Origin: Zanthoxylum bungeanum
Taxonomy: Eukaryota > Streptophyta > Magnoliopsida > Sapindales > Rutaceae
Direction: 5' to 3'
Length of the DNA stretch: 64,000 bases
Assembly: GCA_019454045.1 (NCBI GenBank)
Contig: SKCR01007817.1
Coordinates: 372,001 to 436,000 of the forward strand
Under the pieces are notes generated by a model. The model was given only the letters and a program-made list of their open reading frames with translations. It was not told where the DNA came from and searched no databases. Positions 3,550-63,914 of this stretch are shown piece after piece. Both the position numbers and the translations under genes were made by a program. How positions within the stretch are numbered: the first letter of the stretch is position 1; the number at the start of each line of letters is the position of its first letter.

Positions 3550-3562
3550 ATCTCCCACTTGG
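3550..3562 (-). promoter_or_regulatory. Polypurine tract of element A
   Basis: Read on the minus strand this is AAGTGGGAGAT immediately upstream of the 3' LTR start, the standard place for the plus-strand DNA primer. Element E has the same sequence before its 3' LTR at 42685. Confidence 0.85.
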
Positions 3563-6500: not shown

Positions 6501-7084
6501 GTCATGCTTCCGCGATCCCGTTTGCCATATTTTAGGCAGACATTTTGGGATATGTCATTTATCTTCCGAGAAGATTATAATGATTTTGTCTTTGCCCATT
6601 TCCACACTCCAGAAGCCTTTGGCCAAGCTTTGGCCTTCTTAAATGTCGAAGTAAGGTGCACCTTGCGCTTCTTGCCTTATTGCAAACTTTAACTTTGTCT
6701 CCTTGAGAACAGTCATTAACTCTCCAAGAGTTTATATTACAATTTAGTACTTCTAAGATCTATAAAGATCCTTCAATTTCATTATCATACTATAAAGATC
6801 TAATCTTTATTTCTGATTAAGAAATTAAGGACTCTATTCGGCAAGTTTAATGGATTAAGTACTAAAGTTATCATCACATGAATCTTCCAAAGATCATGCT
6901 CTACTATTTTTCTTAACTCCGGGCTTAGGCCTAATATGTTATTTTATCAAATAAAGTAACTTATTAGTTTCCAGGACCATCCTGAAATTTATTCCCAATT
7001 TGAAAATTAAAGTCGTTTAAATACATTTTCCCTAGGATTATGTTTTAAATGCTAATCTTTCAATTTTATCTTGATTCTAATAGT
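3563..7084 (-). pseudogene. Decayed copia gag-pol of element A
   Basis: Fragments of a copia polyprotein are readable on the minus strand in several frames. Near 7084 is the gag start, recognised by alignment to the gag starts of E (39138) and G (59771). Near 6480-6560 is a degenerate nucleocapsid Cys-His stretch. Between about 5075 and 4833 is the linker leading into reverse transcriptase, with ISPHKDVNLLEEYELTTYEE and a following MDSMY motif. Near 3840-3870 is the RNase H end (AEAA-like). No frame stays open beyond 81 codons, so no protein is expected. The copy parallels 39138-42672 of element E, which helps locate each block. Confidence 0.75.
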
Positions 7085-7343
7085 CCAACTATTTAATTAA
7101 TGATTTTCGGTACTATTTATTATAATGATTATTATAGTCCAACTATTTAATCAACTATAATTTAATAGGTTAAAATCAATTATATTGATTACTATAATCC
7201 AATTATAAAATCAACTATAATTAATCAAATAAATTCAAGTATATTGATTACTATAATCTAATTATATAATCAACTATAAATGAATAGTTTGAATACAGTC
7301 CAACTGTTTATTAAAACAATGATTTAAATATTAGTCCAACTAA
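7079..7343 (-). other. Array of six mini-hairpins in leader of element A
   Basis: Just upstream of gag on the element strand there are six short inverted repeats with a 3-base loop: 7079-7093 (AATAGT/ACTATT), 7133-7147 (ATAGT/ACTAT), 7193-7207 (TATAAT/ATTATA), 7252-7266 (TATAAT/ATTATA), 7295-7307 (ACAGT/ACTGT) and 7331-7343 (TTAGT/ACTAA). The loop is CCA or CTA on the plus strand, TGG or TAG on the element strand. Stem sequences differ but stay complementary. Equivalent arrays occur at 38916-39123 and 59781-59921. Function is unknown; an RNA structure in the genomic transcript is inferred. Confidence 0.7.
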
Positions 7344-7514
7344 CATTTAATTTATTTGACGAATGATTTTGATATGAGCGTGTATGGCAAGTTATTAAAC
7401 GAATATTGCAAATTCAATACTTGTCTCTCACTATTTTTCGGCGAGCCTCTAACCCTCTGTCGAGAACTCGGGAAACCGTGTTTCCTAGTGGGCTAGGATC
7501 CTGTTAAATGTCAC

Positions 7515-7900
7515 ACAATCTTGACTTTGGCCAACAAATTGTATGATAATTAACTAGGTAGATCTCTAAGATCAATTGGATCCCATCCAATTCCTAGATC
7601 CAGTAGGGGGACATCCAAGTCTGAAACATATATCTTATATATGCCAATATATCCAATATATTACCTAACCTTTTTCCTCTGAATCAACTAAGCATTGGCT
7701 TTGGCATAACAAACTTAGTGATCCCAGTTAAGCGGAACCCATTGACCATGGAAAGCTTCGTAATCAATGTCGATGGACAAGAAGTGGTCTTGACTTTGGC
7801 CAACAAACCACAACTTGGACAAGACACCGATATGGAACAAAGCTCTCATGATTCAAACATATCCTCGACGGACAAAGGTCTTGACTTTGGCCAACAAACC
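7515..7900 (-). other. Four palindromic-loop stem-loops in leader of element A
   Basis: Four copies of a motif with element-strand consensus TTGTTGGCCAAAGTCAAG lie at 7515-7542, 7688-7718 (a diverged copy), 7784-7811 and 7877-7900. Each is closed by a different paired stem (given on the plus strand): ACAAT/ATTGT, CTAAG/CTTAG, GTGGT/ACCAC and GGT/ACC. The loop contains the self-complementary octamer TTGGCCAA in three of the four. The same four positions are occupied in elements E and G with compensatory stem changes. The antisense reading frame at 7718-7921 overlaps these repeats and is probably fortuitous. Confidence 0.75.
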
Positions 7901-9464
7901 AATGCCAGTCTTGGATCTTAAGTAAGAATCACTCAATGGAAGGAAAAATGCTTAATATTTTATGAGGGTTTTTCGCGTGCAAATTGGCAACCAATTTATT
8001 ATCTTTGTTAAGGTCTCATCATCATACACTATTAAACATGTATTCTAAACACATAATAAGGCGCGTAAATAAATAAATAATAATGATATGCGGATGGATA
8101 CTTAACACATTGATCCTAGATCAAATCTCTCATTTTCCTCTCTCCCGCTAGCACATGTATTACTTCTACCTGATACATAACACTTCTAAAGAAACCTCAT
8201 TTACATTGAGGGGAATAGGTGAGAAGAGAAATACAAAGAGTATGAGGTAATAGGCTGGACACGCAGGTCCAATTAATAAATTCTAAATTTATTACAACAA
8301 TTTCCAAAATTGCCCCACCCATCTAATATCCATCCGATATACATTATTCATGCATTGCAACCATGTATTCACACAAGCATGTTATCAATAAATCTAATCC
8401 AATTAATTAATCTGATATTAGTGACCATCCAATGTTCAAACAACGATTTGATTTTGCGCGAGTCCAACTCGTTTTGCGAATAAGTACTCAAAGTACGAAT
8501 TCTTGAATTAAATTAAACTACAAAATTAAATCCAATTTAATATGTATTTAATACTAATTCACTATTTAATTCCAAATTAAATATTACACTTTATTAACGA
8601 ACCTTTTACGACTTAAATTCCAAATTTAATCGTTACGGGTCTCAAAGCCCGATTAACGTCCAACGTTAAATAAATTAAAGTATAATGGGCTTTCAATTAA
8701 TTTTTTTAAGGCGTGGACTTTTGGTCAACTTGGGTCAAACCCAATAACCAAAGCCCAATCAAGGAATAACCCATAAGCCTAGAAATAAATTTAGGCCCAT
8801 TAGGCCCAATTAAAATAATTAAGGTCAATTAGTCGCATTTGGACTTTATGGAAATGGTTTTGGGCCCAATTTGATCCAATCAATTTAGCCTAAACTCATC
8901 TTGTTACAACCAAACCCATTTAGCCCATTTACAACTTTTAAGCCCAAATCCAATTTAAGCCCATTTAATTAAACTACAAAAATTCCAAATTTCATATTTA
9001 ATTAAACAAAGTGTATGGCATAATTAATTACCCAATTCAATATTTCCAAAACATCAATTAGCCTAATTAATCATGCTCTTTAACAATAATTAGTGTCCAA
9101 CACAATTTATCAAAAATCAAACCCATATATACATGCTATAGTCTCGGCAATTTGGGGATAACTATGTCCAATTCGAATACAATCCAATTAAATCCAATTA
9201 AACATTAAATCAACATTCCCAACATGATTCCAACTCATCCAATGAATCAAAAATAAAAAATCCCAAGACATTTAGGGTTCCTCTTCATTCGGCCAAGCCA
9301 AGAATATTGGGGAAAATTGTTCCAAACAACATTTCATGAAATTGATCCAATCAATCTTCAATTCAACATCATTTAAGCATACTCAATCATCCAATTTCAT
9401 TAAATCATGCTCAAATACATTTTACCCAATTTTAACCCTAAATCAAGTTTCATGCTTTTACCTC
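7901..9464 (-). other. Untranslated leader of element A, no further gene
   Basis: This AT-rich leader lies between the primer site and the hairpin arrays. It matches 36804-38340 of element E and 60480-62003 of element G in the opposite or same orientation. Repeated GGGCC/GGCCC words occur at about 8680-8960. I see no coding region or RNA gene in it. Confidence 0.6.
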
Positions 9465-9476
9465 GCTCTGATACCA
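9465..9476 (-). promoter_or_regulatory. Primer binding site, initiator tRNA-Met type (element A)
   Basis: On the minus strand it reads TGGTATCAGAGC followed by GAGG, complementary to the 3' end of plant initiator tRNA-Met. It sits one base inside the 5' LTR end (ACA at 9478-9480 as rc). It is the best preserved primer site of this LTR family in the window. Confidence 0.9.
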
Positions 9477-9477
9477 T

Positions 9478-13364: not shown

Positions 13365-13589
13365 GAGTTTGATTCTAGGCCCCCTAATATGAGTAGCCCT
13401 TTAATTCAATGTTTAATCATGTTTTCTTGACTTTATACATGCACGTTATAATCTAATTTGATTAGATTTAGGGTGTATGACACTTAGCAGAAAATTCCTA
13501 ATTAATAAGGTTTAAATGTAATTATGTATTTGATGCATGTTATGTGGTCCGTCTTGTTAATACGGTTTATAAATATTTCTCCGTGACTA

Positions 13590-13900
13590 CATCTGAGACC
13601 GTGCCTCTGCTGTGAGGGTGTAGCCGATAGAGATTTATTTATATCGGATGTATATCATATATTAGATAATTTCAAGCGAAAGCGGAATCCTGAACGTGCC
13701 CTAGCTGTCAGGGTTACGCAAGTAACTTGAGTTTATCATTGACGAGTTTAACCTTGGTACGACTCCTTATGGGCCTGCCTTAGCAGCAACAATGAGAAAC
13801 GACCAGGACCGGAAACCTAGGAGTCACTAGTGAGTGATTGTCAAATGAGTTGTCTACCTGATGAATATACGTAGGCGAGACCATGCCTCTGCTGTGAGCT
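13590..13900 (+). other. Leader repeats with GTGCC...GCTGT core (element B)
   Basis: Four spaced, related motifs lie between primer site and gag: around 13600 (CCGTGCCTCTGCTGTGAG), 13689-13713 (CCTGA stem, CGTGCCCTAGCTG loop, TCAGG stem), 13771-13786 (GGGCCTGCCTTAGCAG) and around 13880 (CCATGCCTCTGCTGTGAG). They occupy the same positions as four GTGCCAAAGCTGT motifs in the leader of element C (29450-29753). The copy at 13689 forms the same 5-bp stem as its partner in C. Function is unknown. Confidence 0.6.
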
Positions 13901-14111
13901 GAAATATATTCACGGGATCCACCCTTCACTATTTGTATTTAATTTAATTATTAAATCTTTGTATTCTGTTTGGGGATTACAATATTGCATGATTTAGTGG
14001 GATAGGCATTTTTAGATTAAAAATCCATGATCTAGTTTATGCTTATGATATTATATGAAACTGCTTAAATTTCTGCTAACCGTTTTTCGTGATCTATATG
14101 ATAGATTTACG

Positions 14112-14985
14112 ATGGCGGCACCATCCACAAATAAGTTTGTGTGTATGCTTGATGCGAACAAACTAAAAGGCGCTGATAATTTTGCCAATTGGGATATGGA
14201 TTTGAGGATTGTCCTCGATTCCGAGAGGTTTGGATATGTTCTTGAGGGTCCACTGCCTCTTGCTGTGGCAGAGGACGCTACACCGGAAGAACGCGAAGTC
14301 TTCCAAGCTTGGAAGGATGATGATTTAAGGGATAAATCATACATCTTAATTCGCTTTCACTGGGACTCAAGAAACAATATTATGGCATGCCAGATGCTTA
14401 TACTATGATGACACGATTAAGACAATCGTTTGAGAACCAAGAACAAGTTGTTGTTCATAAGGTCGCAATGGAACTGTTCCATGCGCGATTGGATGAGGGG
14501 CAAGCTGTTAGCCCACATGTTCTTCAGATGATCGATTTGATCGATCAATTGAGGCAACATAATCTCATTCTGAATGACATTCTCGGTAGGAGTGTCATTC
14601 TTGGTTCTCTCCCAGCTTCTTATCGCCAGTTCGTGATGTATTTTAACATGAACAGGATTATCTGTACCTACCAAGAGCTGCATAGGATGTTGCTCACGGC
14701 GGAAGAGGACCTCAAGAAGGGAGTACCGACTCGCCCTCCAAGACCTACTTCACTTTCTGCTTCTTCCCAGACTTGGTCAAAGGGAAAGAAGAAGAAAGGG
14801 AAGAAGAAGAAGGGTCTCGGTCCTCAACCACTGGCAAAGATAGCAAAGCCCAAAAGGGCTTCTGAAGACAAATGCCATCACTGCAGCAAAGTCGAGCACT
14901 GGAAAAGGGACTGTCCTGACTACATTGCCCAGCTGAGGAGGGAGAGAGCATCTACATCAGGTACATTTATTTTTCCAATTATTGA
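14112..14985 (+). pseudogene. gag: Copia gag and nucleocapsid of element B (frameshifted)
   Basis: The chosen start is the ATG at 14112 (MAAPSTNKFVCML...), where family similarity begins; the upstream in-frame ATG at 14055 lacks it. The capsid-type region shows NFANWDMDLRIVLDSERFGY and YILIRFHW. At about 14355 the frame shifts by one base, and the protein continues in the frame open from 14387 (YTMMTRLRQSF). A basic Lys-rich linker at about 14780-14810 precedes a CCHC zinc knuckle, CHHCSKVEHWKRDC, at 14872-14913, in which the usual Gly before the His is Glu. Gag packages the element RNA in cytoplasmic particles. The frameshift makes this copy defective. Confidence 0.88.
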
Positions 14986-16266
14986 TTTATCTTTGGCTTG
15001 TGAAGCCGTTACCTCCAACTGGATTTTAGATTCTGCTTGTCCCATTCACATTTGCAATTCGTTGCAGGTGCTGAAGGAAAGTAGAAGTCTGAAGCCTGGA
15101 GAGATGCAGTTGCGATTCGGGAGTGGAGACTCTCCGGATGTAGTTGCAGTGGGAGTATGCGAGATCTCATTGCCGAATGGGACACTTTTGTTAAATGACT
15201 GTCATTTTGTACCAGGATGTGTAGCTAATATTATATCACTTTTTGTATTGGATACAGAAGGCTTTCGTATTAATATTAAGAACTATTTTTTGTATTTATA
15301 TGATAAAAGTAATATTCAGATCCTTTGTTGTCCAAACCAGCATGGTCATTATACATTGCAAACTTCAAAAGATATTTTAAATACTGGAATTAATAAACGT
15401 AGTTTACCTGTAATTAATAATACTGAACTTTGGCACATGCGACTAGGTCATATAGGCGTTAAACGCCTTACCCAATTGGTTAGGAATGGTTTGATACCAG
15501 ATCTCACCATTGAATCCTATCCAACTTGTGAATCGTGTATTCAGGGTAAGATGACCAAAGCCCCATTTTCTGGTGGTGGACACCGCGCCACTAACTTACT
15601 GGAACTCGTACATTCTGATGTATGTAGTCCACTAAGTCAGACTACTCACAGTGGTTATTCGTACTTCGTTACCTTTACCGATGATTTGTCACGGTACGGT
15701 TATGTGTATTTGATGCGACATAAATCGGAAACCTTTGAAAAGTTCAAAGAGTTCCGAAATGAAGTAGAAAAACAAACTGGTCAATATATTAAATGGCTTC
15801 GATCTGATCGAGTCGGTGAATATATGAGTGGTGAGTTCATGGATTATATGAAGGAGAGTGAGATTCTCGCTCAATATACTCCTTCAAGTACTCCACACAC
15901 AATGGAGTGTCTGAGATGAGAAATCAGACTTTATTGGATATGGTCCGATCGATGTTGAGTTTCACAGATTTGCCCTATTACTTATGGGGCTACTCTCTTT
16001 TAACAGCTGCACATCTTTTGAATAAGATTCCTTCAAAATCTGTTCCTACGACTCCGTATGAGATATGGTTCGGTATAAGACCAAATCTTAGTTACATTAA
16101 GGTTTGGGGTTGTCCTGCTTATGTCAGGGTGACTCAGCAAGATAAGCTTTCGCCTCGAGGGCAAAAGTTTAGGTTTGTCGGATATCCTTCGAATACGATG
16201 GGATATATGTTCTATGATACCGAGCATCGAAATGTGTTCGTAGCTCGCTTCGCAAAATTTCTATAA
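14986..16266 (+). pseudogene. pol: Copia protease and integrase region of element B (frameshifted)
   Basis: After the zinc knuckle comes the aspartic protease site WILDSACPIHIC; families normally have DSG or DTG, so the active-site Gly is replaced by Ala. The GAG-pre-integrase zinc domain follows (LWHMRLGHIGVKRL...CESCIQGK, an HHCC arrangement) and then the integrase core with HSDVCSP and RSDRVGEY carrying the two Asp. One base is missing near 15893, so the Glu-containing helix (NGVSEMRNQTLLDMVRS) continues in another frame from 15907. A stop at 16264-16266 ends that frame (ARFAKFL). Integrase inserts cDNA into the host genome; this copy cannot make it intact. Confidence 0.9.
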
Positions 16267-18055
16267 GTAGAATTTTTGTCAGAAGGTGGTAATCATAGAC
16301 ATGTTGAACTTGATGAAGTCCAACCTGAAAACAATGAACCAAAGGAGGAACCTGAAGTTCAAGTAGATGAATGACCTTCAACACACACACTCCGTAGGTC
16401 AGAAATGGTATCTAGACCTCATGAACGCTTGTATTTGATACAAGAAAAGAGTATAGATGTTCTCTTAGTTGAAGAGACTGATCCTTTCACCTATAGAGAA
16501 TCGATGTTGGACATCGACTCCGTGAAGTGGCAAAGTGCCATGAAATCCGAGTTAGACTCAATGCATAAGAATCAAGTTTGGGACTTGGTTCCGCTTCCCG
16601 AAGGAATTGTTCCTATCGGTTGTAAATGGGTTTACAAGAGGAAGCGCGGCCCTGACGGTAAGGTTGAAACTTACAAGGCCCGACTGGTAGCAAAAGGTTA
16701 CACGCAGCGACCTGGCGTTGACTACGATGAAACTTTTTTACTTGTAGCAATGCTTAAGTCTATTCGGATTTTGCTTTCTATAGCTGCATATCATGACTAC
16801 GAGATTTGGCAAATGGATGTCAAAACGGCTTTTCTAAATTGATTTCTTGATGAAGAAATCTATATGGAACAGCCAGAAGGTTTTGCATCCAGTGAAAACT
16901 CGGGTATGGTATGTAAGCTTAAGAAGTCCATTTATGGACTTAAACAAGCTTCACAAAGTTGGAATCTTCGATTCGACGAGATTATTAGATCGTCTGGTTT
17001 TCTCAAGAATTCGGAAGAATCATGTGTGTATCAGAAGGCCAGTGGGAGCATGGTCGTATTTTTAGTCCTATATGTTGATGACATCCTAATCATTGGGAAT
17101 GATTTAGGTATATTACAAAGCGTCAAAGCGTACATCTGTAAGAATTTCTCCATGAAGGACCTGGGAGAAGCGTCCTATGTTTTAGGCATAAAACTCTATA
17201 GAGATAGATAAAGAAGGCTGATTGGGTTATCCCAATCAACGTATATAGATAAGATCTTGGTACGGTATAATTTTGGTAACTATAAGACAACAAACATACC
17301 ATTCAGACATGGGATTCATCTTTCAAAGAAGATGAGTCCACAAACAGAAGATGAGAAGGTTAGAATGTCTAACCAACCTTATGCTTCGTGTTTGGGTAGC
17401 ATAATGTATGCCATGTTATGTACAATGCCTGATATCAGTTTCGCTGTTAGCGTAACTAGCAGATATCAGTCCAATCCAGGTAATGACCATTGGATGGCCA
17501 TTAAACATATCCTTAAGTATCTTAAAGGTACTAAGGATAAGTTAAAAATTTATAGAGGAAACGAACTGCAAGTTAACGGGTATACGGATTCTGATTTCCA
17601 ATCGGATCCCGATGATAGAAAGTCTACATCTGGATTCGTATTTACCCTTAACGGAGGTGCAATTTGTTGGAAGAGTTCCAAACAGGGATCAACAGCAGAT
17701 TCCACCGCTGAGGCGGAATATATTGCAGCTTCTGAAGCTGCAAAACAGGCTGTGTGGATAAAGATTTGTCACAGAATTGGGAGTTGTCCCAAGTATCAAG
17801 AATGCGATTCCGTTATACTGTGATAATACTGGAGCCATTGCGCAAGCATAGGAACCAAGGGCCCATCAGAAGTTGAAGCATGTGGTACGCAAGTACCACA
17901 TCATTCGAGAGATTGTGTCGCGATGGGATATTGTCGTGTGCAAGGTACCGAGTAAAGATAATGTAGCAGACTCACTGACGAAGGCCATACCTCCGAAGTT
18001 GTTTGATAAACACGTGGAGTCGATGGATATTAGATACAATCGTTATTGGCACTAG
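16267..18055 (+). pseudogene. pol: Copia reverse transcriptase and RNase H of element B (stops)
   Basis: Reverse transcriptase blocks appear in order: KWVYKRKRGPDGKVETYKAR, VAKGYTQRPGVDYDETF, WQMDVKTAFLN, SIYGLKQASQSW and the catalytic LYVDDILIIGND. RNase H follows with GYTDSDFQSDPDDRKSTSG and STAEAEYIAASEAAKQAVW. In-frame stops occur at 16841 (TGA, just after FLN) and 17209 (TAA). A frameshift near 17815 and a TAG near 17850 precede the C-terminal HIIREIV...DNVADSLTKAIPPK block, which ends at the TAG at 18053. The stops lie in otherwise well kept sequence, suggesting fairly recent inactivation. Confidence 0.92.
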
Positions 18056-20479: not shown

Positions 20480-20533
20480 ACGTAACCACACAAATAGTCA
20501 TGGTGGCTTCCGCGTAGTGGACCGTGATAGAAA

Positions 20534-22470: not shown

Positions 22471-22677
22471 CTTATATGGGGGAACTACTACATTGTTCTC
22501 CTCTTCTGTTACTGTTTCCTAATGAATTGCCACTTATTTTTCTTGATTGTATTGGTCTTATTAGGTGTCTTTCATCTCTTTTTCGCTCCTGAGGGTTATG
22601 ACGTGACACTTCTCTTTGGGGTTGACCTCAGTATTACTAGGAAATACCCATTTCTGATTAGCTACATACGAAACAAT

Positions 22678-23931: not shown

Positions 23932-24040
23932 AAGAAAAAAAAATAAAATAAAAGCAAATATAAACTAAAAATATAAAATAAAAATCTAAATTAAAGCTAA
24001 GATTACTTGGTAATAATATTAGTGTGGATTAAATTAACAA

Positions 24041-24058
24041 TCCCCGGCAACGGTGCCA
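24041..24058 (-). promoter_or_regulatory. Primer binding site, tRNA-Asp type (element I)
   Basis: The minus-strand sequence TGGCACCGTTGCCGGGGA differs at one base from TGGCGCCGTTGCCGGGGA, the tRNA-Asp-complementary primer site characteristic of Athila elements. It lies a few bases inside the LTR end. Confidence 0.88.
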
Positions 24059-29400: not shown

Positions 29401-29439
29401 AATTAAATTGAATTCCATAGTGAGAAGTGGACCCATGAA

Positions 29440-29760
29440 TATATTTCGACTCACAGCTTTGGCACGTTCTCGCCTACGTATATTCAAAGATAGACAACTC
29501 ATTATCAATCACACTCATCGTGACTCCTGATTTTGGTCCTGACCATTTCTCGTTGTGAAACTTTTGGCACGATCACAGGAGGTTTATCAATACTTCACTT
29601 GTCAGTGAAAAACTCAAGTTACCGATGTAGTCCTGACAGCTTTGGCACGTTCAGGATTTCCACATTCACTTGAATTCGTCTCTTATCATATAAGTTCTAT
29701 TGGTGTAAATGAACTACCATCAGCCATAACTACACAGCTTTGGCACGATACAGCTATAGC
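29440..29760 (-). other. Leader repeats GTGCCAAAGCTGT (element C)
   Basis: Four spaced copies of the element-strand motif GTGCCAAAGCTGT lie at 29452-29466, 29555-29578 (GTGCCAAAAGTT), 29632-29655 and 29730-29753. Three are closed by different stems: TGTGA/TCACA, CCTGA/TCAGG and CTGTA/TGTAG (the last with two G-U pairs as RNA). They parallel the four leader motifs of element B. They are presumed RNA structures in the genomic transcript. Confidence 0.62.
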
Positions 29761-34781: not shown

Positions 34782-36788
34782 TGTTGGACAATTATGACCC
34801 ATAGCAACACTATTTGTACAGATCATGGTGTTGTTGTACAAATTAACTATGTGACAAAAGAAATTGCATTTTTATCATTTGTAATTAGATTACCAAGATG
34901 TATAAATGATAGAAGGTCCATATGATTAGTTCCAGATTGAGATGATATGAGACAGTATCAATCCACGAAGGTTTAATCATTAAATATCCCTAGTCAGAGT
35001 ATTATCGAGATTAGACATCGATAATACGTAAAAGACTAGTATTACACTTGTGCGCGTTGTGGGAGCATAACAACATAGTTCTCATATATTTGGGTATTGG
35101 ATACTCATGCAAGTGTAATAGGAGGTTGTGTTTACCAATGGTACGGAAACAGCTTCGCTCTGGATAGACCCCTTGGAATTCCATTGGTAGTATGACTATG
35201 TGTCTATGGAAGTCCGAATCAGGGTAGGTGTATTTGGTCTTAACCTGAGACTTGAACCGCTAATACTTGCGACAATCAATATACTTTGGTTTTGGTCGTC
35301 CAGGGCTTTAACAGGTTCTGTGTACGCCTCTTCTGGGTATATTGAGAATCGTAGTGTATTGGGTGTGATGTCAAGACGGAAGTATCACTCCAGTCATAGT
35401 GGAGATGATGATCACGTAGGATACGGAACTGGTGCTCTTATGTATTGCAGTCATCAAGATAATATTACTAGGTCATGATTATCCGATTATAGAGACTAGT
35501 TCCCTGAGATCCGATATGTGCTTCGTACGAGGCAGACACAATTCCAGCCCCAAGCCTTGCACGTGACATCCGATGCTGGATCGAAATAAGCAATACTACG
35601 TATACTACGCCTGATATAGATCACATATTCCTATAAGAATATTTCTGGAGAATTGGGTAGGCATGGTACTTTTCTAGAAGCCAACCATGTCTTGTAAATC
35701 GGTAAAAATGTAGTACTAGGTACGTACGTGTTCGGATAGTTCGACGATCGAATTTACTACCAACATATCTGGGGATCTCATGGGTCGCTTCTCGAAGATT
35801 CACCGATGACGTATGACTCACACTTTATTAATCTTGGATTAATTATAAGAGAGAGAAAATTAATCTAGGATTAATTACTGAGATATTTTATCTGGGATAA
35901 AATATTAATTAAAGAGAGAGAACGATTAATTTGGAATGAATCTATAAAATAATATATTTTATATATTAAACGAAATTGGATTTCGACGCGGAATTAAAAT
36001 TAGATTTTAATTCGGGCAAACGAGTTAATTTAGAATTAATTCGTTAGCGACATGAATAGTAATTTTGCTAGGCATGATTATTTAATTAAATTTGATTTAA
36101 TTATGTCGCAATGGAAAATTCGTTAATTCAGAATTAGCGAACCCGAGCCCGGGAGTGTTTGCGGGCCCACTCGCATTTCGAATTCAAGTGCGGCCCACAA
36201 GTCACATCAAACGTCACATCACTCGTCATTCAAGTGATGTATGTCTTGTCACTTTGAGTGATTGACAACCAGTCACTATTCATTGATTGATGTAAGTGGT
36301 TGTATGGCTTTAATGCTTGTACTTTTGGAATTTGAATTTTTGGTATTAGGTTTTTGGAAAACCAAATACACAAACTAATCTCATCTTCCTCACTTCTTCT
36401 CTCTCTCTCACGGCCAAGGGCCAAGTTTTCTTCTTTCTCCATTTTCTTGGCAAGGCTGAAAATAGCAAGTTGGAATGGGAAAATTTGTGGCAAATTTTTC
36501 CAATGCTAGCACATGAAGGGTCATCCAAAGGTGATTGGGAAACCTATTCATGAGCATGGAATCACAACACAAAGCTTGGAGCTTGGAGATCCATCCATGG
36601 AGTTGACCGAATTTGGAGGACCACAAAATCTAGCCATTGCCGAGAGCTTCATCAAGGGAGTAAAAAGTTTTGTGTTCGACGCATCGCAAATCCGATCATT
36701 GTAAGTATGATTCCGCCATGCTTCTTTGTAGTATTCACACATGATTTATTGCTTGAATTGATCTTGGGACTAACCTAGAAACCCAACA
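34782..36788 (+). repeat. 5' LTR of element E (2,007 bp)
   Basis: Bounded by target duplication on the left and primer site on the right. It matches the 3' LTR except for a block of about 310 bases lost from the latter. Confidence 0.93.
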
Positions 36789-36803: not shown

Positions 36804-38340
36804 ATTTTGAGCATGAAATTGAAATTAGGGTAAAATTGGGCAAAATTGATTTGAGCATGTTTGAGTGAAATTGATTGTTTAAATATGCTTGAATGATGAT
36901 AACATGGTGTTATGCATGATCGATTTGATGAAAATTGAATTGGATAAATTTTCCCCAAATTGCTTGGCTTGGCCGAATGGTTAGACTACCATAATGTCAT
37001 GGTATTTTTTGATTTTGATCATTGGATGAGTTGAAATCATTTGGGGAATGTTGATTTAGGATTTAATTGGATTGAATTCGGAATCGGACATGAAAAATCC
37101 TAAAATTCCGTGAATGATGTAGCATGGCAAATGATTGATTTTTTGATTCAAATGTGTTGGACATGTTTTGATGATGATTAGCATAATTAATTGAGTGAAT
37201 TAGTATTTTGGAAATGTTAATTTGGTTAATTAATTATGGCATACACTTTAGGTTAATTAAATTATGAAATTTTGAATTTTGGTAATTTAATTAATTGGGC
37301 CAAATTTGGAATTGGGCTTGTAAAGTTGTAATTGGGCTTAATGGGCTTGGTTGGGCCAAGTTTGGTTTAGGCTAATTGGTTGGATCCAATTGGGCCCAAA
37401 ACCATATCCATAAAGTCCAATTATGACTTAATGGACCTTTAATTTTAATTGGGCCTAATGGGCCTAAATTGGTTTCTTGGCTAATAAGGGTGATTCCTTA
37501 AATGGGTTTTGGTATTTGGGTTTGACCCATATTGACCAAAATTCCATGACTTATGAAATTAATTGAAAGCCCATTGGACTTTAATTAAATTAACATTGGA
37601 TGTTAATCGGGCTTTGAGACCCGTAACGATTAGATTTAGAATCTAAGTCGTAAAGGCACATTAAAAAGTGTAATTATTTAATTTAGAATTAAATATAGAA
37701 TTAGTATTAAATACAAATTAAATTGGATTTAATGTTGTAGTTTAATATAATTCAAGAATTCGTACTTTGAGTACTTATTCGTAAAACGAGTCGGACTCGC
37801 GTAAAATCAAATCGTTGTTTGAACATTGGATGGTCATTAATTTTCAGATTAATTAATTGGATTAGATTGATTGATAACATGCTTGTGTGAATACATGGAT
37901 GCGATGTATGAATAATGTATATCGAATGGATATTAGATGGTGAGGGCAATTTTGGAAATTGTTGTAATAAATTTAGAATTTATTAATTGGACCTGCGTGT
38001 CCAGCCTATTACCTCTTGACTCTTTGTATTTCTCTTCTCACCTATTCCACTCAATGTAAATGAGGTTTCTTTAGAAGTGTTATGTAATCGGGTAGAAGTA
38101 ATACTTGTGCTAGCGAGAGAGAGGAAATGGAGAGATTTGTTCTAGGAACAATGTGTTTAAGTATCCATCAGCATATCATTATTATATTTACTTACGCTTC
38201 TTATTATGTGTTTAGAATGTATGTTTAAGGGTGTATGATGATTAGACCTTAACAAAGATAATAAATTGGTTGCCAATTTACGCGAAAAACCCTCAACACA
38301 TAATAAGCATTTTTTCCTTCCATTGAGTGATTCTTACTCA
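36804..38340 (+). other. Untranslated leader of element E, no gene seen
   Basis: AT-rich leader homologous to 7901-9464 of A and 60480-62003 of G. Many GGGCC-containing words occur at about 37300-37600. No coding region is apparent. Confidence 0.6.
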
Positions 38341-38358
38341 AGATCCAAGACTGGCACT

Positions 38359-38744
38359 GGTTTGTTGGCCAAATTCAAGACCTTTGTCCGTCGCGGATGT
38401 GTTTGAATCATGAAAGCTTTGTTCCATATCGGTGTCTTGTCCAAGTTGTGATTTGTTGGCCAAAGTCAAGATCACTTCTTGTCCATCGACATTGATTACG
38501 AAGCTTTCCAAGGTCAATGGGTTCCGCTTAACTGGGATCACTAAGTTTGTTGTGCCAAAGCCAAGGCTTAGTTGATTCAGAGGAAAAAGGTTAGGGAATA
38601 TATTGGATATATTGGCATATATAAGATATATGTTTCGGACTTGGATGTCCACCTACTGGATCTAGGAATTGGATGGGATCCAATTGATCTTAAAGATCTA
38701 CCTAGTTAATTATCATACAATTTGTTGGCCAAAGTCAAGATTGT
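38359..38744 (+). other. Four palindromic-loop stem-loops in leader of element E
   Basis: Copies lie at 38359-38382 (GGT/ACC stem), 38448-38475 (GTGAT/ATCAC), 38541-38571 (CTAAG/CTTAG, diverged loop) and 38717-38744 (ACAAT/ATTGT). Loop consensus is TTGTTGGCCAAAGTCAAG with internal TTG/CAA pairing and the palindrome TTGGCCAA exposed. The second stem differs from its partner in A (GTGGT/ACCAC) by a compensatory pair change. The reverse-strand reading frame 38338-38652 covers the same bases and is probably incidental. Confidence 0.75.
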
Positions 38745-38915
38745 GTGTTATTTAACGGGATCCTAGCCCACTAGGAAACAAGGTTTCCCGAGTACTCCAC
38801 AGAGGGTTAGAGGCTCGCCGAAAAATAGTGGGAGGCAAGTATTAAATTTGCAATTTTCGTTTAGATACTTGCCATACGCGGTCATTACAATTTTTTCGTC
38901 AATATAAATTAATAT

Positions 38916-39123
38916 ATTAGTTGGACTAATATTTAATATTGTTTTAATTAAACAGTTGGACTATATTCAAACCATTTCAATTAATAGTTGATTTTATAAT
39001 TGGATTATAGTAATCAATATAATTTAATTTAATCAATTAAATTATAGTTGATTATATAGTTGGACTATAGTAATCATTATAATGAATTGTACCTAAAATC
39101 GTTGATTAAATAGTTGGACTATT
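38916..39123 (+). other. Mini-hairpin array upstream of gag in element E
   Basis: Hairpins with TGG loop lie at 38916-38930 (ATTAGT/ACTAAT), 38995-39009 (TATAAT/ATTATA), 39055-39069 (TATAGT/ACTATA) and 39109-39123 (AATAGT/ACTATT). A weaker one is at about 38952-38964 (AGT/ACT core). All share xxxAxT-TGG-AxTxxx, and the outer pairs vary but remain complementary. The last ends about 15 bases before the gag start. Confidence 0.7.
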
Positions 39124-39137: not shown

Positions 39138-42100
39138 TGAAAGATTAGTGTTTAAAATATAAACCTGGGTGAAAATATTTTAAACGGCTTTAATTTTCAA
39201 ATTGGGAATAGATTCTCAGGATAGTCTTGGAGACCGAGAAAGTTACTTTATTTGATATAGTGACGTCTCGAGCCTAAGCTCGGAGTTGAGCAAATAGTAG
39301 AACATGATATATGGAATATTCATGTGATGATAACTTTAGTGCTTAATCAATTATGCTTGCCGCAAAGACTCATTAATTTCTTAGTCAGAACTAAGGATTA
39401 GATCCTTATAGTATGATATTGAAATTGAAGGATCTTCATAGATCTATCCTTAGATCTTAGAAGTACAAATTGCAATAGAAAACTCTTGGAGATTTAATGG
39501 CTATGCTCAAGGAGACAAAGCCAGAGTTTGCAATAAGGCAAGAAGCACAAGGCGTATCTTACTTCGACATCCCAGAAGGCCAAGGCTTGGCCCAAAGGCT
39601 TATGGAGTGTGAAAAAGGGGCAAAGGCAAATTCATTATAATCTTTTGGGAAGAGAAAGGACATATCCCAAGATGTCTGCCTAAACTGTGGCAAACGGGGT
39701 CACAGAAGCGTGACTGCCGTATGGACAAGGCAGACATGAAGGAAGTGAATAGGGGCAAGGCTCCGTCTTCAAATATGTTTGTCATAAACATTTTTTATAC
39801 TGGTTTCAAAATTGGATTTTGATACTAGATGTGGTACATAAATATGTACTGGTGTGCAGAATCAGCTGAAAAACAGGATACTGACTTCAGTTGAGATTTA
39901 CCTACGAATAGGAAACGGGAGGAAAGTCGTTGTTTTAACCGTAGAAACATAAGCTTAGGAACTACCATTCGGGTATGTACTTGAATTAGGAAACTGTTAC
40001 AATGTAACTATTTTGACTAGGAACATTATCTCTATAGCAGGGTTTAACCCGTTGCGGGTATACCTTTATATTCTAGAACACTAAAGTGTTTTATTTTATA
40101 AAGATGATATTGAGATAAACACATTAGATGTGAATAACAGTATTTATATTTTGAATATAAATAAATCTCAAACGTATAACATGACAAACAAATAGCTCAA
40201 ACTGATTTAATCAGTTGAGACTTATTTGTGGCATTATTGTCTGGGACACAATTAAACAAGACTCGTATATCCACACTTTTGAAGAGTGGATACTGGGACG
40301 GATTTGATTCTATTCAAATAATGTCTACGAATCTAGTTTATTAGGCAACGTGTCTATAACACCTTTTACTTGGTAAAAGTGCAAGTGCCACCGATCTGTT
40401 AGCCCTTGTTCATAGTGACGTAAGTCCCATATCTAGCTAGGCTAGAGGTTGATATGAACACTTCGTAACCTTTACGGATGTGGCATCACGTTATGGTTAT
40501 GTGTTTCTTTTGAAACACAAATCGGAAACTTTTGATGAATTCAAAGAGTTTCGACACGAAGTAGACAAACATATCGGCTATAGTATTGAAACCGTCACGG
40601 TTAGACCATGGTGGAAAATACTTAAGCAATAAGTTTCTCATATACTTGAAAGAGTATAGTATTCTTTCAATTAGGACTCCTCCCGGAACACATCAATTTG
40701 ACGATGTATCCGAACAGAGAAACCGAATTTTGTTAGACATGATAAGGTTAATCATAAGTCGCTCTGAGCTACCATTTCCTTCAACGGATATACATTAGAC
40801 AGTGCAAAACTTATTTTGAATAAGGTTCCATAAAAATCTATTAGACAGACTTCATATTAGATATGAACAGGAAAGAAACCGGGTTTTCTCATTCCTTAAG
40901 ATTTGGGAATGCTAGGCATATGTTTGGATGATACCAAACTAGAACTCAAATCGGATAAGTTCCTAATTGTAGATTATCCTAGGGAAACCAAAGTATAGTA
41001 CTTATACAACTCACAAGAGAACAATGTAATTGTTGCTCACCATGCGGTTTTCCTAAGAGGAATACCTATATGTAGTGGTAAGTGGGAGGAAAGTAAAACT
41101 CGATGAAAATCGGAGTAATACTGTTCCAGGCACTGATTCCTTAATGGAACACTAATAGTTCATCAAGGATGAAACTATACCAATAATCTTCAAATACACA
41201 AGAACCGCGCAAGTCGGAGAGAGTCAGGAAACAACCTGGGAGGTATGGGTTTCTGATCTCACCTCGTAAAGATGTCAATCTTATTGAGGAATATGAACTG
41301 ACTACGTATGAGGAAGTCATACAAGGTATCGACTCCCAATTATGGCAAAGTGCCATAATGTCCGAAATGGATTCCATGTATAACAACCAAGTTTGGACAC
41401 TAGTTGTTGTACCGAAAGGCATTGTGCCTGATGGTGCTATATAAGTCTTCAATGAAGACATACATGGAAGGCAACATACCAACGTACTAAGCTGGGCTTG
41501 TAGCGAAAAGGTATCGTTATCAACATTGTGTCGATTACGATGAAACCTTTTACCAGTTGCCATGGTTAAATCCATTTGGATAATGCTTGCTAATGCTGCA
41601 TGTTTCATTCATGAAATATGGCAGCTGAATGCCAAAACCGTTTTCCTTAACGGAAACTTTTTGGAGGATGTTTACAACATCCTGATGATTTTGTCGTACC
41701 AAAATGAGCAAACAAGGTTTGCAAGTTAATTCGATCCATTTATGGATTGAAGCAAACATTAAGTTCTTGGAACTATCGTTTTGATGTAATCATAATGGTA
41801 TATGATTTAATTCAAAACGAAAATGATTCTTGTGTATATAAAGAGGTTAGTGGGAGCGCACTGACAGTGAATGTCCTAAGTAATGATGACATATCATTTC
41901 TTGGAAATGATATTCCCATAATACAATCGGTGAAAGCTTGGCTTTCATGAAAAATTCTTCGTAGAATTCTTGGGATAAACAACCTTTATTCTCGGAATAA
42001 AGATCTACTGGGATAGATCTAAAAGTTGTTAGTACTCTCCGAGAAATCGTACATTGAAATAAATGTACGCGACCTAGTGTCTCATATGCTTTGAGCATAT

Positions 42101-42672
42101 GGAGTCACAATCAGGCCAATCCAAGTGATAGTCACTGGATTGATGTTAAGAACATCCTTTAGTATCTTAGATGAACTAAGGATGCTTTCTTATACTATGG
42201 AGAAGGAGAACTTAAAGTGACTGGGTTCACTGCTGCAAGTTTCCAAACTGAAATAAACGACTATAGGTCGCAACAAAGGTACTATACAGTTTGAATTACG
42301 GAACAGTGAGATGGAAATCTTCCAAGCAATATACTGTTACCGAATAAACAACAAAAGCGGAATATTGCTGCAGCTGAGGCAGCAATAAAAGCCTTTTGGA
42401 TCGATAATAATCCTAATCGATTAGGACTAGTTCTGTTGGCAGTTGAGCTAGGCTACAGCACAGGCTAAAGAATTAATGGTCTCATCAACGATCCAGATAT
42501 ATACTTCAAACATTCATCTGATTCGTTCGGATCATACATCGTGGGAGATTGTTGAATAAATCGCATAAGATGATAACCATGCAAATCCGCTGACGAAAGC
42601 ATTTCCTCAGCAGAAGTTTGAGCGAACCGCACATAGTTCGGGTGTAGGACACTTGAGGGATTGGCTATAGAC
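39138..42672 (+). pseudogene. Decayed copia gag-pol of element E
   Basis: Recognisable plus-strand blocks: a gag start near 39138; a nucleocapsid with VCLNCGKRGH near 39682 whose last Cys is lost by a frameshift; integrase segments near 40586-40780 (KPSRLDHGGKYLSNKFLIYL, RNRILLDMIRLIIS); the pol linker near 41260-41400 (RKDVNLIEEYELTTYEE, SEMDSMYNNQVWTLV); reverse transcriptase near 41747-41950, where the catalytic box reads SNDDISFLGND instead of YVDDILxIGND; and an RNase H end near 42375 (AAAEAAIKAFWID in a shifted frame). Many stops separate the blocks, so no product is expected. Confidence 0.82.
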
Positions 42673-59780: not shown

Positions 59781-59921
59781 AATAGTCTAACTATTCAATC
59801 AACGATATCGGGTACAGTCAAATGTAATGATTACTATAGTCAAACTATATAATCAACTAAAAATGAAGTTATGGTACAGTCCAACTGTTCAAAGAAAATA
59901 ATAAAATATTAGTCCAACTAA
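59781..59921 (-). other. Mini-hairpin array upstream of gag in element G
   Basis: Four hairpins with 3-base loop: 59781-59795 (AATAGT/ACTATT), 59835-59849 (TATAGT/ACTATA), 59876-59888 (ACAGT/ACTGT) and 59909-59921 (TTAGT/ACTAA). They are equivalent to the arrays in A and E. Confidence 0.7.
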
Positions 59922-60090
59922 TATAAATATATAATGACGAAAATAATTAAAAAGTGCGTATTTGGCAAATATTAAACGAAATTGTAAATTTAATAATGGC
60001 CTCCCACTATTTTTCGGCGAGCCTCTAACCCTCTGTTGAGTACTCGGGAAACCCAGTTTCCTAGTGGGCTAGGATCTTGTTAAATAACAC

Positions 60091-60458
60091 ACAACCTTGA
60101 CTTTGGCCAACAAGTTGTATGAAACTTAACTAGGTAGATCTCTAAGATCAATTGGATCCCATCCAATTCCTAGATCCGGTAGGTGGACCTCCAAGTCCAA
60201 ATATGTATCCAATATATATTTCCTAACCTTTTCCTCTGAATCAACTAAGCCTTGGCTTTGGCTCAACGAGCTTAATGATTCAAGTTAAGTGTGACCCATT
60301 GACAGTGGGAAAGCTTCGTAATCCATGTCGATGTACAGAAGTGACCTTGACTTTAGCCAACAAGTCACAACTGCCCAAGACATGTGATATATAACAAAGC
60401 CTTCATGGTTCAAACACATCCGCGATAGACAATGATCTTGACTTTGGCCAACAAATCA
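60091..60458 (-). other. Four palindromic-loop stem-loops in leader of element G
   Basis: Copies (plus-strand stems): 60091-60118 (ACAAC/GTTGT), 60246-60274 (TAAGC/GCTTA), 60341-60368 (GTGAC/GTCAC) and 60433-60458 (TGAT/ATCA). Each differs from its counterpart in A and E by paired, compensating changes, while the loop CTTGACTTTGGCCAACAA (plus strand) is nearly constant; the third copy has TTAGCCAA. Confidence 0.75.
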
Positions 60459-62003
60459 AAGCCAATCTTGGATCTTGAGAGAGAACCACTAAATGGAAGG
60501 AAAACACTTAATGTTAAAGTGAGGGTTTTTCGCGTAAATTGGCATCCAATTTATTATCTTTGATTAGGTTTCATCATACACCCTTAAGCATGCATTCTAA
60601 AAGCATAATAAGACGCGAATATATTAATAACGATATGCGGATAAATATATAACAATTTGTTCCTAGAACAAATCTCTCTATTTCCTCTCTCCCGCTAGCA
60701 CTATTCATACTTCTACCCAATTACATAATACTTTAAAGAAACCTCATTTACATTGAGGGGAATTGGTGAGAAGAGAAATACAAAGAGTAAAGAGATAATA
60801 GGCTGGACACGCAGGTCCAATTTAATAAATTCTAAATTTATTACAATAATTTCCAAAATTGCCCTCACCCTTCTAATATCCATCCGATATACATTATTCA
60901 TACAAATACATCCAATTATTCACACAATGCATGTTATTTAATCAATCTAATCCAATTAATTAATCTTTGAATTAATGATCATCCAATGTTCAAACAATGA
61001 TTTGATTTGCGCGAGTCCAACTCGTTTAAGAATAAATACTCAAAATACGTATTCTTGAATTATATCGAACTACAATTTTAAATCCAATTTAATTTGTATC
61101 CAATATTAATTCGTATTTAATTCCAAATTAAATAATTACACTTATTTTAGTGCCTTTTAGACTTAGATTCTAAATCTAATCTAAATGGGTCTCAAAGTCC
61201 CAATTAGTATCCAATATTATTTTAATTAAAGTCTAATGGGCTTTCAATTAATTCTTAAGGCATGGGCTTTGGCCAATATGGATCCAATCCAAGATGCCAA
61301 TGCCCAATAAGGTATTACCCTTTTTACCAAAAATCAATTTAGGCCCAATTAAATTATTAAAGGCCCAAAAGTTATATTTGGACTTTAGGGAAATGGTTTT
61401 AAGCCTAATTTGGATCCAATCCAATTATCCAAAACCATGCTTGGCCCAACCAAACCCATTAAGCCCAATTACAACAAATTTAGCCCAATCCAATTTAAAG
61501 ACTAATATTTATTAACATAATATTCCAAATATCTTATTAATTTAATTAAAGTGTAATTAGTACAATTAATCAATCAATCTAATATTTCCAAAATACTAAT
61601 TAATTTAACTAATCATACTTTACATTTCAATTCATGTCCAACACAAATTGAAGCAAAACAATTCATTCCAACATGCTTAGACTCACGACATTGACAAGAA
61701 ATTATCAAGCAATTTGATTTCAATCCAATTAAATCAACATCTAACATACATTTCATGCCAACAACACATCCAATTGTCTAATTTTCAAAAAATCACCATG
61801 AGCATATATTATGGTAGATTCGGCCAAGGTAATAAATTTGGGGAAAATTAATCTAATTAATTTTACACAAAATCAATCATGCATAACTTCAAGTTATCAT
61901 CTTATAACCATAACCAAAGAACCAATTTAGGCATTTGAAAGCTCAAAGCATAAAATCCCCAAATCAAGTATATAAACCATAAACTCAAATCATGCCTGAA
62001 AAA
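60459..62003 (-). other. Rest of leader of element G, no gene seen
   Basis: AT-rich leader homologous to 7901-9464 and the reverse of 36804-38340. Short open frames (60713-60901, 60753-60941, 61294-61515) have no conserved counterpart. Confidence 0.55.
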
Positions 62004-62018: not shown

Positions 62019-63914
62019 TGTTAGTGTCCTAGACATGCTCAAGGTCTCTAAGTAATGATATTGTGTGTGAATGATCAAGAGAGTTGCGGAAAAACTTACA
62101 TTGATCGGATGTAGATTTCAAAATTTTGTATGTTTGTTGGAAGCTCCAAGCCTTCTATGAGTGAATCCAACCCAAGGGTGAGTTTCCATATCACCTTCTT
62201 TGACTCCTTTAAAGTGCTAGCTTAATGAAATTTTGCAACAAAACTTCAATGGAGAAGGAAGAAGCTCACGACAATGAGCAAAGGAAGAAGATAGAGTTTG
62301 CTGTGAATAGTAACTTGTCTTACTTCCAAAGTTGACTTGCTTTAATTTATACAAAGGTTGTGTGTTGGATTTGGTTTGAGTGTTTTATAAGTAAAGCCAA
62401 GCCTTACTGGCAACAAATCAAATCCATAATTCAAGCCTAACCACTTCCATCACATGTCCAACAAGTTGATGTAAGTGAAGTGGGTCCCACCACTTTTAAA
62501 TTCCAAATTTAAGTCGGCTAACTCAACACGCAACTTCGCTCGTGCCCGGGTTCATTTAATTCCGAACTAAATGAATTTTCCGTCACGACGTAATTAAATC
62601 CAATTTAATTAAATAATAATGCCTAGCAAAATTATTACGAAAGTCGCTTGCGAATTAATTCCAAATTAATTCGTTTGCCCGAATTAAAATCCAATTTTAA
62701 TTCAGCTTTGAAATCCAATTTCAATTAATATATCCAATATATTATTTAATCGATTAATTCCAAATTAATCGAGTTCTCTCTTCTATTCGAATTTTATCCC
62801 AGATCAATTTTTGCCGCAATTAATCCTAGATTAATTTTCTTTCTCTCATAATTAATCCCAGATTCATTCTGTTCGAGTCAAATGTCATCGGTGAATCTTT
62901 CGGAAGCGACCCAAGAGATCCATGGATATGTTGGCAGTAAATCCGATTGTCGGACTATCCGACACGTGCGTACCGCGTACCACGTTCTCACCGATTTACA
63001 AGACATGGTTGGCTTCTAGCAAAGCACCGTGCCTACCCAATTCTCCAAAAATATTCAATGAAGAATATATAATCTATATCAGGCATAGTATACTATGTGT
63101 TGCGTATTAAGATCCAATATCGGATGTTACATGCTAGGCTTGGGGCTGGAATTGTGTATGCCCCGTACGAAGCATATATCGGATCACTAGCAACTAGTCT
63201 CTTTAATCGGATAATCATGACCTAGTCATACTATCCCGATAGTTGCAGCATATGAGAGTACTAGTTCTGTATCCCTGAGCGATCATCTTCTCCATATGAG
63301 TGAAGTGATACTTACATCTTGACACACACCCAATACACTAAGATTCTCAGTAAACCCAGAAGAGGTGTACACAGAACCTGTTAAAGCCTCGGATGAACAA
63401 AACCAAAGCGTACTGATTGTCGCAAGTATTAGCAATGCAAGTCTCAAGTTAAGACCACACACACCTACCCTGATGTGGATTCCCATAGACACATAGTCAT
63501 ACTACCAATGGGATTCCGAGGGGTCTATTCAGAGCGAAGCTGTTCCGGGTCCAACGGCTAACAGAACCTCATATCACACTTGTATAAGTATCATATACTT
63601 AAATCTATGAGAAATATGTCGTTAAGCTTCCATAACGCGCACAAGTGTAATGCTAGTCTATTCCGCACTATCGATGTCTAGTCTCGATAATACTACGACT
63701 AGTGATATTTAATGATTAAACCGTTCATGGATTAATATTGTCTCATATCTTATTAATCCGGAACTAATCATAAGGACTTTTATCATTTATATATATTCAA
63801 GTAATCCAATTACAAAATGATAAAATAACAATTTCCTTTGTCACATATTTAATTTGTACAAAAACCACAATGTCTTTTACAAATAGTGATGGTATAGGTC
63901 ATAATTGTCCAACA
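62019..63914 (-). repeat. 5' LTR of element G (1,896 bp)
   Basis: It starts TGTTGGACAATTATGACC at 63914 and ends CTAACA at 62019. It is the same family as the LTRs of 0, A, E and J. The bases after the start (CTTCAGGTCTAGTC, 63915-63928) match the H leader near 58690, suggesting that G inserted in an H-type leader. Confidence 0.9.

Follow-up and report, generated by a model that had tools for sequence, protein, structure and literature searches.

The window, as we call the whole stretch of 64,000 nucleotides analysed here (Zanthoxylum bungeanum, contig SKCR01007817.1; GC content 0.357), holds copies A, E and G of one family of copia LTR retrotransposons, elements C and D, which represent two other copia families with leader repeats of their own, and a 14.5-kb non-copia retroelement stretch (44380-58900) whose one identified frame is of the RVT_1 type. 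Element C has the features of a plant Ty1/copia element, namely gag_2, BBD, pre-integrase and integrase domains (the integrase match scores under its curated cut-off), a CCHC knuckle and a PBS adjoining the LTR. Its Gag contains one zinc knuckle, CHHCSKVEHWKRDC (CX2CX4HX4C), and the PBS next to the LTR, TGGTATCAGAGC, is presumably a motif of the initiator-tRNA type. In a protein search that scored 7,991 candidates, the named relatives among the best 120 of 657 were mostly flowering-plant copia polyproteins at ~34-46% identity, further relatives among these 120 showed 67-83% identity over 33-58% of the query, and no relative was found in viral or prokaryote contigs.

The internal parts of A and E contain no sense frame of at least 150 amino acids. 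In the ~1.3 kb 3' of the leader, 35 of 41 A/E/G copies have no frame longer than 150 amino acids, and the longest frame exceeds the shuffled maximum (102) in 12 of the 41; five of the 46 loci, without the marker sequence that lies directly 3' of the leader hairpins, were left out of this count. That marker matches the genome 79,251 times (39,517 + 39,734, at most 3 mismatches), and the exact 18-mer loop of these hairpins occurs 193,312 times (96,371 + 96,941) on both strands of the 3.96-Gb genome, as against 0 occurrences of the reversed 18-mer used as a control. The family has tens of thousands of copies, yet is mostly coding-dead.

The leaders of A, E and G each carry a quartet of stem-loops, S1 to S4, and the loop TTGTTGGCCAAAGTCAAG recurs among them at the positions given below.

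7877..7900, minus strand: copy A, S1, GGT/ACC around the 18-mer
7784..7811, minus strand: copy A, S2, GTGGT/ACCAC
7687..7719, minus strand: copy A, S3, non-palindromic loop, ACTAAGT/GCTTAGT
7511..7546, minus strand: copy A, S4, 9 pairs including one T-G
7520, 7789 and 7880, minus strand: copy A, loop TTGTTGGCCAAAGTCAAG
38359..38382, plus strand: copy E, S1
38448..38475, plus strand: copy E, S2, GTGAT/ATCAC
38540..38572, plus strand: copy E, S3
38714..38747, plus strand: copy E, S4
38362, 38453 and 38722, plus strand: copy E, loop TTGTTGGCCAAAGTCAAG
60433..60458, minus strand: copy G, S1, TGAT/ATCA
60341..60368, minus strand: copy G, S2, GTGAC/GTCAC
60244..60276, minus strand: copy G, S3
60088..60121, minus strand: copy G, S4, ACAAC/GTTGT and outward
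60096, 60346 and 60437, minus strand: copy G, loop TTGTTGGCCAAAGTCAAG

These nine occurrences have 0-1 mismatch, with 0.09 matches expected by chance at up to 3 mismatches; a tenth match, with 3 mismatches, lies at 26051, outside the A, E and G leaders. The first-pass annotation had counted four copies of the loop per leader: three are indeed near-exact, whereas the fourth, that of S3, differs (TTGTTATGCCAAAGCCAA in A, and mostly TTGTGCCAAAGC or TTGAGCCAAAGC among 66 copies). The three stem comparisons that it quoted are exact in the window, and its leader length of ~2.3 kb is right, given that the quartet of A lies 1576-1965 nt 3' of the PBS and that 317 nt separate S4 of G from the first gag-side ATG downstream. 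Inside the 18-mer UUG/CAA could pair too, leaving a bulged G on the 3' side; because these inner pairs hardly vary, covariation speaks neither for nor against them. The S1, S2 and S4 stems have predicted pair probabilities of 0.76-1.0 over the paired positions in A, E and G, and those of S3 are 0.28-0.47 in A and mostly at least 0.9 in E and G. Rfam gave no match at gathering score in 7000-9600 of the window, the sole match at E<=1 being SNORD19B (25.3 bits against a gathering score of 50).

Two more perfect hairpins, TCCTAG-CCCA-CTAGGA and GGAAA-NNNNN-TTTCC, directly follow S4 (7467-7510 of A, minus strand; same place in E and G), and at another locus of the family (L027, 2046-3754) the first part of the quartet region is tandemly triplicated.

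For the analysis of covariation, 46 copies were aligned, taken among the 100 places listed of the 193,312 exact loop matches after 8 duplicate loci (L001-L008) and 3 short matches (L031, L042, L050) had been left out, and 20 held-out copies were taken among the 100 marker matches listed of the 79,251, all of those listed being exact. Since copies were selected by matches inside the region itself and are not a random sample, absolute loop conservation is inflated. Among the 46 copies, the stems vary in a paired way at each site. S1 occurs as GGT/ACC, GGC/GCC and GAT/ATC, and as GGG/CCC with matched one-base losses on both sides in four copies (L024, L026, L037, L043), with one copy (L021) showing a 5' change without a matching 3' change; S2 as GTGGT/ACCAC, GTGAT/ATCAC, GTGAC/GTCAC and the wobble form GTGAT/GTCAC, with one mismatch, GTGAT/ACCAC (L016); S3 as AAG/CTT and AGG/CCT; and S4 as ACAAT/ATTGT, ACAAC/GTTGT and ACAGC/GTTGT.

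When S1, S2 and S4 were pooled into 96 distinct hairpins (alignment A1; 5 of 101 left out), 88.9% of 768 cells paired, compared with 79.4+-0.7% in shuffles (0/500) and 18.9-56.8% when the partners were slid, and 145 cells were changed on both sides, compared with 41.6 (0/500). Two of the five measures do not clearly exceed the shuffles, namely the number of pairs with a double change (5 vs 4.4; 182/500) and that of further pair types (15 vs 12.8; 34/500). Pooling mixes sites that are unlike each other, so each of S1 to S4 was in addition tested separately on a tree of the 66 copies, with a home-made null (not R-scape) in which the observed changes were moved to random branches in 500 simulations, on a single tree, an assumption that recombination among the copies violates. 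Taking all quartet stems together, 95.3% of cells were paired, compared with 87.9+-2.5% under this null (0/500), and 84 cells were changed on both sides, compared with 12.1+-9.4 (0/500). The observed pairing was reached by 6, 22, 2 and 1 of the 500 simulations for S1, S2, S3 and S4, respectively, and the observed double changes by 10, 0, 74 and 6. In the 20 held-out copies 457 of 480 stem cells were paired. The octamers within the loops (for S3, a nonamer) accumulated 0.67-1.25 changes per column, compared with a block mean of 2.14 and with 1.9-4.2 in the stems (66 copies).

Whole-alignment E-values had low power in the first 46-copy block, where the best pair was an S2 pair at E = 1.7. When local column pairs were ranked by covariation, hairpin pairs, defined on the same alignment as was ranked, took ranks 1, 3, 4, 5 and 6 of 114,332 and seven of the top 60 places (0.1 expected); the S2 G-C/A-T pair stood at rank 4 (E 1.6), and E fell below 0.05 for only three local pairs, two of them hairpin pairs (ranks 1 and 3) and the other, at rank 2, not a predicted hairpin pair. 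The first-pass annotation had made its case for paired changes from three copies and left it to a larger alignment to decide; in the larger alignment the stems are kept by compensatory change, which confirms that the quartet stem-loops are real and covarying.

Elements C and D also have four stem-loops each in their leaders, ~80-105 bases apart and 228-559 nt 3' of the PBS, with a TGCC-NNN-GC core (TGCCAAAAG at the third hairpin of D) and stems unlike those of A.

13587..13623, plus strand: element C, hairpin 1, CTACATCT/GGGTGTAG, core TGCCTCTGC
13686..13715, plus strand: element C, hairpin 2, AATCCTGA/TCAGGGTT, core TGCCCTAGC
13766..13793, plus strand: element C, hairpin 3, core TGCCTTAGC inside CTGC/GCAG; outer stem weak, limits approximate
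13862..13912, plus strand: element C, hairpin 4, TGAATATA/TATATTCA, core TGCCTCTGC
29724..29759, minus strand: element D, hairpin 1, CTATAGCTGTA/TGTAGTTATGG with G-U pairs, core TGCCAAAGC
29632..29655, minus strand: element D, hairpin 2, CCTGA/TCAGG, core TGCCAAAGC
29554..29577, minus strand: element D, hairpin 3, TGTGA/TCACA, core TGCCAAAAG
29436..29486, minus strand: element D, hairpin 4, TGAATATA/TATATTCA, core TGCCAAAGC

In an alignment of 42 copies (C, D and 40 others hand-picked among the 100 matches listed of 18,140, hence a non-random set), 1272 of 1352 stem cells were paired (94.1%, compared with 86.6+-2.0% under the tree null; 0/500) and 47 were changed on both sides (compared with 15.1+-8.3; 2/500). 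For hairpins 1 and 3 both measures show signal; hairpin 4 pairs above the null (11/500; inner helix 5/500) and its double changes are not above it; and hairpin 2 exceeds the null on neither measure (274/500 and 142/500). A covariance model built on the A hairpins (R1) did not match either the C or the D leader at E <= 1, so that common descent of the two kinds of quartet is not established; what they share is the architecture and the GCC-NNN-G core.

The first-pass annotation had interpreted the A/E/G quartet as a multivalent dimer initiation site, in which four palindromic loops kiss through the self-complementary octamer TTGGCCAA, like the retroviral DIS. Of 66 copies, 55 have the exact octamer at S1, 54 at S2 and 61 at S4; at these sites it changes at 0.75-1.25 per column against the block mean of 2.14, and it sits on the stems predicted at 0.76-1.0 in A, E and G. 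S3, in contrast, is palindromic in 0/66 copies, and its loop is as conserved as the other quartet loops (0.67 changes per column); it keeps GCCAA in 65 of the 66, which could pair with UUGGC of the other loops. At S1, S2 and S4 the number of self-complementary octamers equals the number of exact ones, which means that no variant among the 66 copies was restored to Watson-Crick self-complementarity by a matched change. The C/D quartets lack TTGGCCAA altogether (0/42 copies). The claim of four palindromic kissing loops is not supported in that form, since a self-complementary sequence is not exposed in each loop as in a retroviral-type DIS, and the palindrome as a general property is ruled out by S3 and by the C/D quartets. 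As judged from the aligned copies, the palindrome is a feature of one family, and what is common to the families is the set of four leader hairpins with a GCC-NNN-G core. With S3 never palindromic and the C/D quartets devoid of the octamer, the kissing-loop interpretation is weakened and we regard it as unlikely for the quartet as a whole, dimerisation via the A-family octamer being possible as an added function.

Beyond the coordinates and claims of the first-pass annotation, a larger array of small hairpins with a U-N-G triloop was found. Hairpins with the loop TTGGA and at least 4 perfect pairs number 16, 8 and 10 in the leaders of A, E and G, compared with 0.03-0.07 in shuffled sequence. 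Among 5-base loops in 46 sense-oriented loci of ~4 kb each, TTGGA occurred 361 times, TTAGA 136, TTTGA 70 and TTCGA 13, while changes at the four other loop places were rare (0-21 each). In the same loci, T-N-G (TGG, TAG, TTG or TCG) accounted for 731 of 1016 triloop hairpins with a stem of at least 6 pairs, compared with 18 for the complement form C-N-A and 34 for the next loop, AAG; the closing pair of the T-N-G hairpins was TA in 580, CG in 79, GC in 57 and AT in 15.

The window contains 138 U-N-G hairpins, of which 137 lie in copia stretches, all of them on the element (gene-sense) strand and none on the opposite strand, and one in the unassigned stretch 20481-25300; 44380-58900 has none on either strand, the non-copia comparison covering ~19 kb of the window. 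Shuffles of the window regions gave ~1.8 in sum. Arbitrary, unannotated genome stretches totalling 25.5 kb (3 of the 20 regions drawn did not exist and were left out) held 15 T-N-G hairpins on both strands, among 36 triloop hairpins in total. The main groups are as follows.

7081..9355, minus strand: leader of A, 14 U-N-G hairpins, with loops at 7087, 7201, 7260, 7655, 7990, 8118, 8285, 8306, 8534, 8574, 8622, 8662, 8738 and 9349
36899..39123, plus strand: leader of E, 14 U-N-G hairpins, with loops at 36905, 37597, 37637, 37684, 37724, 37953, 37974, 38143, 38270, 38604, 38922, 39001, 39061 and 39115
59783..61866, minus strand: leader of G, 11 U-N-G hairpins
35827..36496, plus strand: 5' LTR of E, nine U-N-G hairpins with stems up to 10 bp
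62499..62966, minus strand: LTR of G, nine U-N-G hairpins
39392..42101, plus strand: decayed coding region of E, 11 U-N-G hairpins
14336..17823, plus strand: element C, three open reading segments, 10 perfect triloop hairpins

Some coding-region hairpins of E share their stem with A (e.g. 41901 in E and 4327 in A). In C and D the first loop base is freer, and G fills the third place in 13 of the 16 internal triloop hairpins of C and in 19 of the 26 of D, compared with 0 of 10 in 44380-58900. The open segments of element C (2655 nt) contain 10 perfect triloop hairpins, compared with 1.69 in synonymous shuffles (0/1000), and nine of the 10 have G in third place, compared with 0.79 (0/1000).

Clusters of U-N-G hairpins are also present in the LTRs (1-3560, 9477-11458, 34774-36780 and 61951-64000), and inside one such cluster the two LTRs of A differ in length, with an alignment break near 10441 versus 2435-2545. 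Between the quartet and gag of A (7050-7360, minus strand) there are similar AT-rich units bearing U-N-G hairpins, with the stems TATAAT/ATTATA and AATAGT/ACTATT, and TATAGT/ACTATA in E and G.

Constraint on the array was assessed by defining hairpins in a random half of 45 full leaders (L027, L014, L050 and L042 left out) and testing them in the other half, in three splits with 18-20 hairpins and 122-135 pairs. Pairing was 94.8-95.5%, compared with 90.3-90.4% (sd 0.8-0.9), and double-changed cells numbered 65-80, compared with 15-17, with 0/200 for both measures in each split. Changes per column were 1.05-1.11 at the U in first place, 2.72-3.25 at the N in second place and 0.68-0.75 at the G in third place, with 0.80-0.84 in the array stems and a leader mean of 1.64-1.72. 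An unconstrained base flanked by two conserved ones, atop stems whose changes are paired, marks a loop that something reads. In predicted folds, 10 of the 14 array hairpins of A and 11 of the 14 of E had a mean pair probability of at least 0.4, whereas values below 0.2 were predicted for two of the 14 in A, three of the 14 in E and one of the 11 in G.

Along the leader, conservation is 0.83-0.96 and mostly at least 0.89 at positions ~760-2080, lower in the gag stretch after 2440 (0.82-0.91), and lower still than gag in the first 760 bases (0.70-0.90). Near leader position 2080 of A (7396-7436, minus strand) conservation drops from 0.92 to 0.80, directly after a splice-donor-like stretch, which reads GGCAAGTATT in E; near the LTR end there is GTAAGTATT.

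The hairpins are specific in strand and loop, kept by compensatory change and in excess over chance. We infer that the repeated loop is what a protein reads, and the most likely reader would be Gag. CCHC zinc knuckles are modules suited to accommodate an exposed G, and work on the MLV nucleocapsid indicates that an exposed G, with pyrimidines nearby, is what a single knuckle reads. We propose, with a probability of about 0.55, that the RNA-sense strand carries two layers of cis-acting hairpins whose repeated loop is probably read by Gag for packaging. The first layer is the leader quartet, with a family-specific conserved loop (around GCCAAAG or UGCCNNNGC) on stems that change yet keep pairing; the second consists of dozens of small perfect-stem U-N-G triloop hairpins across LTR, leader and coding sequence, in the looser form N-N-G in families C and D. 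The many hairpin copies may nucleate and load Gag along the genomic RNA, so that this RNA would be selected for, and compacted within, the virus-like particle, the quartet being its strongest, Psi-like site, and such signals could let coding-dead copies be mobilised in trans. The strand-specific loops, their presence in LTR, leader and frames and their absence from non-copia sequence fit cis-acting signals on an RNA packaged by Gag, and a conserved leader (~760-2080) in copies mostly without frames fits packaging signals with Gag often supplied in trans. Packaging or dimerisation of the genomic RNA is our best guess for the role, drawn from sequence analysis in one host genome.

Three other explanations have to be weighed against packaging by Gag. 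A host RNA-binding protein could read the loops as signals for translation, export or stability, which the position of the G quartet, ending 317 nt 5' of the first gag-side ATG, would allow; triloop decay elements have been described elsewhere (PMC11609897, in the cited excerpt). Such a role would hardly call for hairpins throughout the element, open frames included, nor for their absence from the neighbouring non-copia retroelement stretch of the same host, and we consider it improbable. Host proteins that read triloop hairpins do exist, Roquin in animals being one. Somewhat more doubtful still is a role at the DNA level, as protein-binding cis-regulatory repeats like the LTR palindromes of Sireviruses, possibly feeding host small RNAs: part of the array does lie in the LTR and, in the excerpts cited, palindrome arrays are known from plant copia LTRs (PMC2829016, PMC10760457), but a DNA-binding palindrome would show the opposite of a varying stem around a fixed loop, the loop occurs on one strand only (137 vs 0), and the array continues through leader and open reading frames. 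Least probable of all is a mutational by-product, in which template switching during reverse transcription or replication would perfect quasi-palindromes and so yield perfect stems and double changes without selection, as could be imagined for copia DNA made by an error-prone reverse transcriptase, since it leaves unexplained the constancy of U and G on either side of a variable middle base, the conserved quartet loops and the absence of the hairpins from the 14.5-kb RVT_1-type stretch.

Returning to packaging by Gag, a broader and more tentative form of the proposal, to which we give somewhat less than even odds, is that plant copia RNAs are written throughout, frames included, with an N-N-G (U-N-G) hairpin code for the Gag knuckle, together with four strong hairpins before gag. 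If so, the entire RNA, and not one Psi site, would confer packaging specificity, which would explain how families that are mostly coding-dead come to number tens of thousands of copies. LTR retrotransposons make up much of large plant genomes, and, to our knowledge and from a non-exhaustive search, little is known of how they select their own RNA for packaging. The loop-specific covarying array provides a motif directly testable with Gag and a sequence test for which families can be trans-mobilised, and it gives an example of retrotransposon coding sequence being constrained by RNA structure.

Among systems already described, the retroviral Psi/DIS and yeast elements likewise have hairpins or palindromes near the 5' end of the genomic RNA. 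According to the cited excerpts, Ty1 and Ty3 dimerise via short palindromes (PAL1/PAL2 of Ty1, PMC9503155; DS/PAL6 of Ty3, PMC11381356), and MLV has several NC-binding hairpins, DIS-2, SL-C and SL-D (PMC8472981). An exposed palindrome as in the retroviral DIS is found in three of the four A/E/G hairpins, whereas, unlike these systems as excerpted, the elements described here have four hairpins per leader, 1.6-2.0 kb 3' of the PBS in A, and the palindrome is missing from S3 and from the C/D families. BARE of barley, comparable by description only, is likewise a plant copia element with an untranslated leader, for which "conserved dimerization and packaging signals" are stated and a gag-less form is packaged in trans; the excerpt describes no hairpin array or quartet (PMC3735527). 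Sireviruses, as excerpted, are also plant copia elements with arrays of short inverted repeats and a 3-base spacer (CACCGGACNNNGTCCGGTG), located mainly in LTR cis-regions (PMC2829016, PMC10760457); there the stem is conserved, whereas here the loop is conserved, the stems covary, and leader and coding sequence are covered as well. The conserved CGG-CCG stem core of the Sirevirus repeats was not found in the stems of the present array, most of which are rich in A and T and no two sites of which need be alike.

A further likeness is with dispersed packaging signals, proposed for several viruses as stem-loops with a common recognition motif (PMC6281560, in excerpt). As in the single-stranded RNA viruses and the HBV pregenome (PMC6281560, PMC7612645, both in excerpt), the genomic RNA here carries multiple stem-loops with a short shared loop motif on variable stems and in varying surroundings, and selection of the stems for pairing holds for quartets and array together, with hairpin 2 of C/D taken alone as the exception. 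A non-exhaustive literature search turned up no title or abstract opening on such a hairpin array in a retrotransposon, and the excerpts of the papers compared here describe no loop-conserved, stem-covarying one. The viral signals, as excerpted, are tied to coat or core proteins, whereas the present hairpins are carried by an LTR retrotransposon, have a U-N-G (N-N-G) triloop as their motif and have Gag as a candidate reader.
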